Positions 13,565-52,882 of a DNA stretch of 64,000 nt are shown here, in pieces; the first letter of the stretch is position 1; every line of letters begins with the position of its first letter. The notes below the pieces were generated by a model that saw only the letters and a list, made by a program, of their open reading frames with translations, was not told where the DNA came from and searched no databases. The position numbers and the translations under genes were made by a program. Source of the DNA: Brevundimonas sp. (lineage in GTDB: Bacteria; Pseudomonadota; Alphaproteobacteria; Caulobacterales; Caulobacteraceae); NCBI GenBank assembly GCA_027531145.1, contig JAPZRF010000008.1, positions 1 to 64,000 of the forward strand, in the 5' to 3' direction.

Positions 13565-13752
13565 CGCCCGGCAGATTCGCCCTTTGGCCGGGGCTGCCGC
13601 CGTTCCTCACGTCCGGGCTTCGCACAGGGATCTGGTGTTATTGAGCCCGCCCTCGCGCTCGCGATGGCGAGCGTTGGGGCGGCAGCGCGCAAATCGGAGC
13701 CGGTTCGGCGGCCACCAGGCCGCTTGTCAATCCCGATCGGAATGGAAGGACC

Positions 13753-13893
13753 GCCGTCAATACCAACGTGGGCGCGAAGATCGCACCCCGGAACCAAAAT
13801 GCGACCATCGCCGAACTCAACCTCATCCAGAACCGTGTCAACATTCGCAAGAAGGTAGCGATGGCCAGGGATAGCTGTGCCATCCGGGCTATC
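13753..13893 (+). pseudogene. remnant of a flagellin N-terminus
   Basis: One frame reads VNTNVGAKIAPRNQNATIAE, then LNLIQNRVNIRKKVAMARDS and CAIRAIA. This follows the N-terminal D0 helix of Caulobacter-type flagellins (SINTNxGAxIALQNLNATNxxL...QxRINTGKKVASAKDxGAIWAIA) nearly position by position. No start codon, upstream Ala-Leu start or downstream flagellin body is present; the frame ends in low-complexity sequence before a terminator. It sits directly after flbT-flaF, where flagellin genes lie in related genomes. I read it as a decayed flagellin gene. Confidence 0.7.
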
Positions 13894-13942: not shown

Positions 13943-13999
13943 CTCGCCCGGATCACGACTTCGGGAGCTTTGCTTGCAGGCCGCGCGAACCCGTCTAGG

Positions 14000-14032
14000 A
14001 TGAAGGTGTGTCCAACATCTGAAAGGAGGTGA
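14000..14032 (+). CDS. 10-residue leader ORF overlapping the 16S-complementary site
   Basis: ATG AAG GTG ... encodes MKVCPTSERR and stops at the TGA inside AGGAGGTGATCC. The final AGG AGG codons are also the Shine-Dalgarno of the next tiny frame. Translating ribosomes would cover or free this site. It may be a regulatory leader peptide, or chance; no known family. Confidence 0.3.
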   Translation: MKVCPTSERR

Positions 14033-14037
14033 TCCAG
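14021..14037 (+). promoter_or_regulatory. 17-nt perfect complement to the 16S rRNA 3' end
   Basis: GAAAGGAGGTGATCCAG is the exact reverse complement of the bacterial 16S tail CTGGATCACCTCCTTTC. Ordinary Shine-Dalgarno sites match four to seven bases. It is followed at ideal spacing by a GTG that opens a 21-residue frame, and a strong terminator closes the unit about 110 bases later. Confidence 0.7.
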
Positions 14038-14102
14038 TGATCTCATTGTCCCGAACCGCGACGGTGCGGACCTGGACCTCCGCGACGGCGATCGCCGCCT
14101 GA
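14037..14102 (+). CDS. 21-residue small ORF after extended Shine-Dalgarno
   Basis: A GTG seven bases after GGAGG opens a frame for MISLSRTATVRTWTSATAIAA, ending in TGA. It is too short for the ORF track. The extended ribosome-binding site would give very strong initiation if accessible. The peptide resembles nothing I know and the frame could be incidental to an RNA function of the leader. Confidence 0.3.
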   Translation: MISLSRTATVRTWTSATAIAA

Positions 14103-14145
14103 GCGCGTCACAAAGGTCGACCGCCAGGCGGTCATCGACAATGTG

Positions 14146-14179
14146 AAGCCGTCGGGCGCGCCCGACGGCTTCTTCTTTT
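14146..14179 (+). terminator. strong rho-independent terminator
   Basis: A perfect 12-bp-arm palindrome AAGCCGTCGGGC/GCCCGACGGCTT followed by TCTTCTTTT. It closes the short unit that begins near 14000, supporting a discrete small transcript. The converging esterase gene ends five bases later, so it may also act weakly on the other strand. Confidence 0.85.
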
Positions 14180-14183
14180 CCGT

Positions 14184-15062
14184 TCAGGCACCGAGCAGGA
14201 AGGCGAGGGGGATGTCGGCGCGGGCGGCCCACGCCGCCTCGGTGTGCTCCGCCCCCTCGAAGCGGCGGGTGATCCAGTCCACGCCCTGACGCCAGCCGGC
14301 GGCCCGCAGATGGGCGTCCATGCGCGCCTGCAGCGGCGGGTACAGGGCGTCGAGGGTTGTGGTGCCATGGTCGAAGTAGAGCCGGTGCCCGCCGGGCGGC
14401 GGCAGGTGCGCCGCCAGCCAGTCGATCACCACCCCGTCGCCCGCCGGCCAGTGGGTCGAGATGCAGGCGGCACCGCCGAACACCTCCGGATACTCGGCGA
14501 GGGCGTAGGCCGAGATCAGCCCGCCCATGCTGGACCCCATTACGAAGGTATCGTCGCGTCCCGGAAGCGTGCGGTAGCGGGCGTCGATCGCCGGCTTAAG
14601 GACGCCCGTCAGCCAAGCCAGATAGGCGTCGGAAGTGATGTCTTCGGTGCGCAGGGCGTCGGCACCGAGGCCGAGGGTGAAGGTGTCGGCGGTCACCGCC
14701 TTGCGAGGCATGTAGTCGAGGGCGCGGTTGGCACTGTTCCAGACCCCCAGGACGATCGGGGCCCGGACGCGATCGACTGCGATCAGGGCTTCGAGGGTCT
14801 CGTCGATCCGCCATTCCTGGCCGCCGAAGGCGCGGCCGGGCTCGAACACATTCTGTCCGTCCTGCATGTAAAGCACCGGGTGACGCGTCCGGGCACCATC
14901 GTAGCCGGGCGGCAGCCACACATCGACGGCGCGCGGCAGGACGCCGGCCGACGTGGGCGCGTCGAAACGCTCGACCCGTCCGGTCGTCCGGGCGAGCACG
15001 GGCCCTGCGCCGGCGAGGGGCAGGGCGGCAGTGGCGGCGAGCAGGGCGCGACGGTCAAGCAT
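14184..15062 (-). CDS. secreted alpha/beta-hydrolase, putative esterase
   Basis: The 292-residue protein has a twin-arginine-like signal (MLDRRALLAATAALPLAGAGPVLA) and the esterase D/antigen-85-like fold. Motifs are YMQDGQNVF near residue 65, the nucleophile elbow FVMGSSMGGLIS, and a late His in GAEHTEAAW. It should hydrolyse an ester, perhaps of a siderophore or sugar, in the periplasm; the substrate is unknown. It is single-gene, converging on the small terminated unit to its left. Confidence 0.8.
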   Translation of the reverse strand: MLDRRALLAATAALPLAGAGPVLARTTGRVERFDAPTSAGVLPRAVDVWLPPGYDGARTRHPVLYMQDGQNVFEPGRAFGGQEWRIDETLEALIAVDRVRAPIVLGVWNSANRALDYMPRKAVTADTFTLGLGADALRTEDITSDAYLAWLTGVLKPAIDARYRTLPGRDDTFVMGSSMGGLISAYALAEYPEVFGGAACISTHWPAGDGVVIDWLAAHLPPPGGHRLYFDHGTTTLDALYPPLQARMDAHLRAAGWRQGVDWITRRFEGAEHTEAAWAARADIPLAFLLGA

Positions 15063-48706: not shown

Positions 48707-49485
48707 CAGTCGGCGATCTCCACCATGACCGGGACATGGTCCGAAGGTTTGTCCATGTCCCGGGCGTTGCGGTGGGTCTGGATGCCCCCGAACCGGTCCG
48801 CGGCCTGGGCCGACATCAGGACATGATCAATGCGGATCCCGTGGTTCCGTGGCCAGGCCCCGGCCTGGTAGTCCCAGAAGGTGTAGGTGCCCGGAGCTTC
48901 GCCGCCGACGTCATGAGCGTCGCTGAAGCCCAGCCACTTCAGGGCGCGGAAGGCGGCCCGGCTCTCGGGCTGGAACAGGGCGTCGTCCTTCCAGGCCACC
49001 GGATCGTGGGTGTCTACCGGCTCGGGGATGACGTTGTAGTCACCACACAGCAGAAGGGCCTCCTCAAGCTGCTGCAGCTCCCGGGCGTGGGCCTGCAGCC
49101 GGTCGAACCAGGCCAGCTTGTAACTGAACTTCCCGGTGCCGACCGGATTGCCGTTGGGCAGGTAGATCGAGGCCACCCGCACGGGGCGCGAGGTCTCGAC
49201 CACAGCCTCGATATAGCGCGCCTGATCGTCGCCCGGGTCGCCAGGCAGGCCGCGCCTCACATCCGACAGGGGGAAGCGCGAGAGCATGGCAACGCCATTG
49301 TAGGTCTTCTGGCCGTGGGTTTCGACGTTGTAACCGAGGTTTTCGAGGGCCTCGCGAGGGAACTTCTCGTCGACGCACTTGAGCTCCTGCAGGCACAGGA
49401 CGTCCGGCCCGGCCATCTCGACCCAGGCCAGCACCGTCGGCAGTCGTGCATTGACCGAGTTCACGTTCCAGGTGGCGATCCGCAT
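48706..49485 (-). CDS. xthA: exodeoxyribonuclease III
   Basis: The 259-residue AP endonuclease/exonuclease repairs abasic sites. Motifs are MRIATWNVNSVNARL, LCLQELKCVDEKFP, ARYIEAVVE, IYLPNGNPVGTGKFSYKLAW, GDYNVIPEPVD and the C-terminal HGIRIDHVLMS...PSDHVPVMVEI. All metal and catalytic residues are present. I start at MRIATWN; the longer frame has 18 unlikely residues. Confidence 0.96.
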   Translation of the reverse strand: MRIATWNVNSVNARLPTVLAWVEMAGPDVLCLQELKCVDEKFPREALENLGYNVETHGQKTYNGVAMLSRFPLSDVRRGLPGDPGDDQARYIEAVVETSRPVRVASIYLPNGNPVGTGKFSYKLAWFDRLQAHARELQQLEEALLLCGDYNVIPEPVDTHDPVAWKDDALFQPESRAAFRALKWLGFSDAHDVGGEAPGTYTFWDYQAGAWPRNHGIRIDHVLMSAQAADRFGGIQTHRNARDMDKPSDHVPVMVEIAD

Positions 49486-52112: not shown

Positions 52113-52882
52113 CCGACCATGTCCTGACCCAGCTCGCGAATGGGGTCCTGAGTGTCAGCCTGAACCGGGCCGACAAGAAGAACGCCATCACCCAGGCCAT
52201 GTACGAGGCCCTGGCCGAGGCTGCGGAGCGCGCCCAGACTGACCCTGCCGTGCGCGTGATCCTGTTCCGGGGCGAGGGTGACGCCTTCTCCGCCGGCAAC
52301 GACATCGGTGACTTCATCGCCTTCGGCTCGCAGGGCGCAGGACCTGACGAGATGCCGGTGTTCCGCCTCCTCAAGGCCCTGGCGCATCTTGAGAAGCCCG
52401 CCGTGGCGGCCGTGCGGGGCCACGCCGTCGGGATTGGCCTGACGCTGCTGCTGCACTGTGATCTTGTGGTGGTGGCCGAGGACGCCCTGCTGTCGGCACC
52501 CTTCGTCAATCTGGCGCTGGCCCCCGAAGCCGCCTCCAGTCTGCTGCTGCCGGCCATCGTCGGCCATCCACGCGCCTTCGAGATATTCGCGCTCGGCGAG
52601 CCGATCAGCGGCCTCAAGGCCGAGCAGTGGGGCCTCGCCAATCGCGCCGTCCCGGCGGCCGAGGTCGACGCTGTGGCCCTGGAACTGGCCGGCAAGGTGG
52701 CCGCCCGGGCCCCGAACTCGATCCGCAAGACCAAGGCGCTCATGCGCGACGCCGAGCGGATGTGGGCCCTGATGCTGCGCGAGGGTGAAGCCTTCGGCAG
52801 CCAGATGAGCAGCCCCGAGGCCATGGAGGCCTTCATGGCCTTCAGCCAGAAGCGCGCCCCGGTCTTCGCCCCGGCTGGCTGA
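52109..52882 (+). CDS. enoyl-CoA hydratase/isomerase
   Basis: A 257-residue crotonase with GEGDAFSAGNDIGDF and VRGHAVGIGLTLLLHCDLVVVAEDALLSAPFVNLALAPEAASSLLL. The oxyanion-hole glycines are present; catalytic Glu positions are partly Ala/Asp, so isomerase or another activity is possible. The GTG start overlaps the MBL gene stop, linking the two functionally. Substrate unknown. Confidence 0.85.
   Translation: MTDHVLTQLANGVLSVSLNRADKKNAITQAMYEALAEAAERAQTDPAVRVILFRGEGDAFSAGNDIGDFIAFGSQGAGPDEMPVFRLLKALAHLEKPAVAAVRGHAVGIGLTLLLHCDLVVVAEDALLSAPFVNLALAPEAASSLLLPAIVGHPRAFEIFALGEPISGLKAEQWGLANRAVPAAEVDAVALELAGKVAARAPNSIRKTKALMRDAERMWALMLREGEAFGSQMSSPEAMEAFMAFSQKRAPVFAPAG

Follow-up and report, generated by a model that had tools for sequence, protein, structure and literature searches.

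The CC2171 RNA, which is present in Caulobacter crescentus NA1000, is described in the literature searched by catalogue entries, which give no function for it (PMC11701678, PMC5596092), and for one of its relatives, MH_s33 of Mesorhizobium huakuii, an RNA-seq transcript is on record (PMC5596092). Several annotated sRNAs of Alphaproteobacteria were found to be translated by Ribo-seq (PMC10117765). In Staphylococcus aureus, one report describes extended Shine-Dalgarno (SD) sites, in which the pairing with the ribosome goes beyond the usual core at the start codon (PMC13009471). The unit presented here is a short stretch of Brevundimonas sp. DNA. It lies in a 64,000-nt sequence (contig JAPZRF010000008.1, positions 1 to 64,000), hereafter called the window.

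Organization and Genomic Context

The features of the unit and of its immediate surroundings are the following:

13974-14001, plus strand: predicted promoter, TTGCAG (13974-13979), 16 nt, TAGGAT (13996-14001), placed from its position
14000-14032, plus strand: 10-codon ORF MKVCPTSERR, ATG to TGA, read from the letters only and outside the conserved unit
14010-14179, plus strand: predicted transcript of about 170 nt, its 5' end placed by the conserved GTTCAACA
14021-14037, plus strand: 17-nt complement of the 16S rRNA 3' end, with the core GAAAGGAGGTG at 14021-14031
14037-14102, plus strand: 21-codon ORF, GTG start, VISLSRTATVRTWTSATAIAA, TGA stop at 14100-14102, read from the letters
14044-14050, plus strand: 5' strand of stem P1, CATTGTC, within the ORF (codons 2-5), pairing with 14137-14143
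14137-14143, plus strand: 3' strand of P1, GACAATG, adjoining the terminator and pairing with 14044-14050
14145-14179, plus strand: intrinsic terminator, 12 pairs (14145-14172), loop of 4, tail TTCTTTT

A first-pass annotation of this DNA had reported a 17-nt stretch perfectly complementary to the 16S rRNA 3' end, a 21-codon GTG ORF starting from it and a terminator with perfect arms, all of which were confirmed in the letters. The complement reads GAAAGGAGGTGATCCAG and overlaps the start codon at 14037. The 16S 3' end of the window's own genome is absent from its assembly, and that of congeners is ...GGCTGGATCACCTCCTTTCT. The 17-mer is complementary to all but the final base of the single-stranded 16S tail and to the adjoining bases on the inner side of the tail. 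The further claim that the site goes far beyond a normal ribosome site held as well. At -21.9 kcal/mol, its duplex with the 16S tail is stronger than that of any other site scanned across the 64 kb of the window, and the 16-mer AAAGGAGGTGATCCAG occurs a single time in the whole genome, with a chance expectation well under 0.01.

Upstream of the unit lie flbT and flaF (Pfam assignments), and downstream a convergent esterase gene and exoD, the convergent downstream gene running from 14184 to 15062 on the minus strand. A remnant of a flagellin gene is found just upstream on the plus strand (13750-13884), corresponding to the first 45 residues (tblastn E 4e-12, about 60% identity to the flagellins of loci L007 and L009), and in certain relatives the flagellin gene at this place is intact. 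Throughout the genus the unit comes after flaF or flagellin, with exoD nearby and a convergent gene downstream. Elsewhere the neighbours are different genes (L012-L014) or, in Rhodobacterales, a transporter. No co-oriented downstream gene conserved across the relatives was found. Judged from these arrangements, the unit is a free-standing gene and not the leader of one gene, because its flanking genes differ between bacterial families.

Relationship to the CC2171 Family

The Rfam model RF01867 (CC2171) matches positions 14013-14171 over its entire length (1-159 of 159) with 70.1 bits and an E-value of 1.5e-14, which places the window 4.9 bits below the gathering cut-off of 75 bits. Most orthologues from the genus score over this cut-off (L004, L005, L007, L008, L009, L011, L015 and L110, at 78-99 bits), two are under it (L003, 68.9; L018, 57.9) and one same-family member reaches 140.6. 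Orthology with the members over the cut-off was found in their positions, after flaF in L004, L005, L008, L011 and L015 and after a flagellin gene in L007 and L009, with a convergent gene downstream. In terms of sequence, the unit is a divergent homologue of RF01867 rather than an automatic Rfam hit, because of its E-value and of the scores of its genus orthologues. The first-pass annotation had not made this assignment. The full-length match includes the SD stretch, P1 and the terminator. What sets the window apart from the family is an extra A after the GTG, by which the frame is shifted and then restored.

Rfam itself assigns four relatives (L118, L119, L091 and L053) to RF01867 CC2171. Of 289 genomes of the class, the model matched 61 at E 0.001 and just 9 over the cut-off, and at the cut-off it had no match in those Sphingomonadales, Rhodobacterales, Rhizobiaceae and Bradyrhizobium loci that carry the same site and start. 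Two of the loci fetched for CC2171-type units also hold matches to the Rfam whalefall-1 RNA (L164:1742-1808, minus strand, and L101:7753-7804, plus strand), one over and one under the cut-off.

Conservation and Distribution

The unit was present in many of the 41 relatives covered by a first search, and two further Brevundimonas loci, L110 and L037, carry units very similar to that of the window. Loci selected by the site cannot prove that the site is conserved. For this reason the covariance model used here was made only from the sequence that follows the start codon (SD-free model). With this model the unit was found once in most genomes of the family, where the E-values leave a gap from about 1e-10 to 1e-6. 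In the genus it was found in 73 of 121 genomes, one copy per genome. In all, about 60% of the genus and family genomes have it. The remaining 40% or so of the genus genomes gave no match to the SD-free model, complete genomes included (e.g., G004, G012, G075), so that the RNA is either dispensable or diverged beyond the model in these bacteria.

Among the 83 distinct units found without using the site, 82 have GAAAGGAGGTG directly upstream (one of them with A changed to G). The core is followed by A or G (77% A), then T or C, and then an invariant C; a G in the first of these positions would still pair with the 16S rRNA as a wobble. The one unit without the site belongs to a genome (G398) in which a second copy, some 3 kb distant, does have it. 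On contig C22 of that genome (L276), the SD-free match without the site lies at 49132-49278 and the copy with the site at 52552-52570.

Within the order, 132 of 398 genomes contain the site followed by the start codon, always as a single copy, and the reversed pattern used as a control was found in 0 of 398. Nearly all matches to site and start in named genomes belong to Alphaproteobacteria, and an even sample of the class had them in 69 of 337 genomes. The CC2171 family is probably wider than the Rfam cut-off shows, as suggested by a sample of the phylum in which 52 of 86 Alphaproteobacteria carried site and start codon versus 4 of 213 others. In addition, the SD-free model matched five Sphingomonadales units at the expected place (L073, L057, L077, L034 and L054; E 2e-7 to 8e-4), which supports their homology beyond the site. 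The same is not claimed for the units of Rhodobacterales, Rhizobiaceae and Bradyrhizobium, which share the site, the start and the terminator and for which the matches of the SD-free model were unconvincing.

Stem P1, Promoter and Exposure of the Site

Over 44 sequences, 98.4% of the P1 cells are paired, with 4 double changes, and sliding the strands by 1-3 columns leaves only 18-58% paired. Covariation within the main clade is modest: 3 of the 7 pairs are the same throughout, and as many doubly changed pairs arise in 85 of 500 shuffles. The pairing there is largely a matter of conserved sequence. When clades are compared, changes in one strand go with changes in the other, and Sphingomonadales are the clearest case (-14.3 kcal/mol for the clade's own strands vs -8.3 for cross-clade combinations), and Rhodobacterales showed no concerted change of the P1 strands in this comparison. 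The whole unit folds better than shuffled sequences (z about -4 to -5), and in aligned relatives the terminator comes after the 3' strand of P1. As for the predicted promoter, TTTGC and CATATT-like boxes are retained among the relatives, spaced from GTTCAACA much as in the window, and a generic sigma-70 scan found no promoter at the unit.

In the predicted folds of 45 relatives, the exposure of GGAGG averaged 0.47 vs 0.27 when the bodies were shuffled, being higher in 42 of the 45. In the window copy, GGAGG is predicted to be fully paired with a CCTCC inside the ORF (unpaired probability 0.002), so the predicted fold of this copy masks the site, which may need to be unfolded first. A conserved masking switch, with CTGGA..CCTCC of the ORF closing over the site, was considered and rejected. 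Pairing between site and ORF goes only modestly beyond that of shuffles (mean z -0.64), base changes do not track it consistently, and the folds of the family expose the site more than shuffled ones. Such a switch is possible for the window copy alone.

In several of the Rhodobacterales units (L032, L039, L042, L049 and L067), the stretch that separates the ORF from the terminator contains CACCTCC, CATCTCC or ACCTCCTTTCG. These motifs can pair with the site, over 11 nt in L042, and a masking switch that uses them is possible in Rhodobacterales.

Reading Frames

The ORF measures 20-24 codons in every one of the 83 family units. Shuffled sequences fall in this range in 8% of cases, and the other two frames, which are unconstrained, in 2% and 22%. 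The 83 units are related by descent and are not independent samples, such that none of these figures is a probability. The stop codon precedes the 3' region of P1 in 165 of 168 units. Moreover, units with the extra A after the GTG (those of the window, L003 and L274) regain the frame within a few codons. The maintenance of frame and length, the position of the stop and the recovery of the frame argue for translation, and the ORF is predicted to be translated.

The 10-codon ORF that the first-pass annotation had placed across the site does exist in the letters, but it was rejected as a part of the unit: a comparable ATG ORF occurs in just 2 of 82 relatives, and the start codon of the 10-codon ORF runs into the predicted -10 box. 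The annotation had also suggested looking for covariation and codon conservation in other Caulobacterales. In the relatives compared, the site and the length range of the 21-codon ORF are conserved and P1 has double changes, codon selection came out mixed to negative, and the 10-codon ORF is not conserved. Sequence comparison establishes the family, the site, the frame, P1, the terminator and the single copy.

Proposed Mode of Action and Alternatives

The best reading of the unit, to which we assign a probability of about one half, is that of an sRNA of the CC2171 kind that is translated and acts by engaging ribosomes rather than through its peptide. Constraint falls on the site, the start, the frame length, the stem and the terminator but not on the peptide, which fits an RNA acting via ribosomes. 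The promoter, transcription at this locus, ribosome binding, translation and function enter the model as predictions. In this model, a transcript of about 170 nt would carry near its 5' end a sequence complementary to practically all of the single-stranded 16S tail, at a normal distance from a start codon, and a 30S subunit would bind it with near-maximal affinity. The bound ribosome would translate a short ORF of fixed length, the amino-acid sequence of which would matter little. With codons 2-5 forming the 5' strand of P1, the initiating ribosome would open this stem, and with the stop codon located before the 3' strand, the terminating ribosome would leave that strand and the terminator alone. 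Occupancy would then set the fold and the stability of the RNA, which could in this way report or buffer initiation; the use made of ribosome occupancy is a conjecture. A bolder version, in which CC2171 would exert global translation control throughout the Alphaproteobacteria by capturing 30S subunits through pairing with practically all of the single-stranded 16S tail, with the mandatory short ORF timing their release, seems improbable.

The RNA could instead serve as a decoy or reservoir that keeps 30S subunits off other messages by pairing with the full 16S tail, its translation being incidental. In its favour, the complement takes in practically all of the single-stranded tail, does not vary over 11 nt and is exposed in the predicted folds of the relatives. 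However, the normally spaced start codon and the tightly fixed ORF point to initiation and not to binding alone, and the window's site is predicted to be masked, so we hold this explanation to be rather unlikely.

The first-pass annotation had raised the possibility of a very strongly translated microprotein, that is, a gene whose functional product is the peptide of about 21 residues, with the strong site ensuring its high expression. The open frame and its length, kept in every one of the 83 units, and the frame recovered after the extra A are in line with this, as are the peptide words TWTS and EVRA that recur among the units and the groups n20 and n24 (after codon 6), which score above permuted columns. 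Against it, third codon positions show no excess of change, positions 1 and 2 changing as often as 3. The amino-acid similarity of frame 0 in the large sets was no better than that of permuted columns (287 and 226 of 400 permutations reach it), and in the Sphingomonadales type 253 of 300 permutations reach it, the codon-selection test losing power wherever the frame coincides with RNA structure. The peptides have little in common from one order to another, and the recurrent words may reflect RNA pairing. Column permutation was mixed to negative on codon selection. A selected microprotein is not favoured, and we consider it unlikely.

A sponge for anti-SD sRNAs, such as the SisA-D (alpha-R8) RNAs of Caulobacter, has still less to commend it. 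The SD of the unit is invariant, and a 10-mer bearing an anti-SD signature is common to SisA-D (PMC12559287). Against this, the stretch that does not vary extends past the usual core and complements the 16S tail at every base, and a sponge would have no need of a start codon and an ORF. The leader reporting the state of translation, also put forward by the annotation, is very improbable: a short ORF, a stem and a terminator do resemble an attenuator, but the downstream gene is convergent in the window and in the genus, and the neighbours vary between families. Finally, a chance match or an rRNA gene fragment, the outcome that the annotation had named as refuting it, deserves practically no credence. 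Nothing was found in its favour, and against it stand a unit conserved across the class with its start, stem and terminator, a reversed-pattern control without matches, and a sequence that is the complement of 16S rRNA and not a copy of it.

Comparison with Known Systems

Under the ribosome-engagement reading, CC2171, which has no function in Rfam, gains a concrete and testable hypothesis, built on its most strongly conserved element, a complement of the 16S tail placed ahead of a short ORF of fixed length. If it is true, Caulobacter and other model organisms, as well as many soil and plant bacteria, would possess an sRNA aimed at the ribosome's own tail. Within the literature searched, what is new is the invariance of the site, the fixed length of the ORF and the Sphingomonadales relatives missed by the Rfam cut-off, and the primary paper, Landt 2008, may hold some of this.

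Among described systems, uORFC-8-2, a ribosome-mediated attenuator located before cysS (PMC8632094), resembles the unit in combining a short ORF, stems and a terminator in Alphaproteobacteria, whereas the unit controls no downstream gene and has no conserved run of regulatory codons. The dual-function sRNA rnTrpL of Sinorhizobium meliloti is likewise a small terminated RNA with a translated short ORF (translation being predicted for the unit). However, rnTrpL is leaderless and derives from the trpE attenuator, while the present unit stands by itself, has an extreme SD and lacks a conserved peptide. The extended SD sites of S. aureus are tied in that report to initiation in general (PMC13009471), whereas the present site belongs to one RNA per genome, the exact combination of site and start occurring once in the genomes searched.
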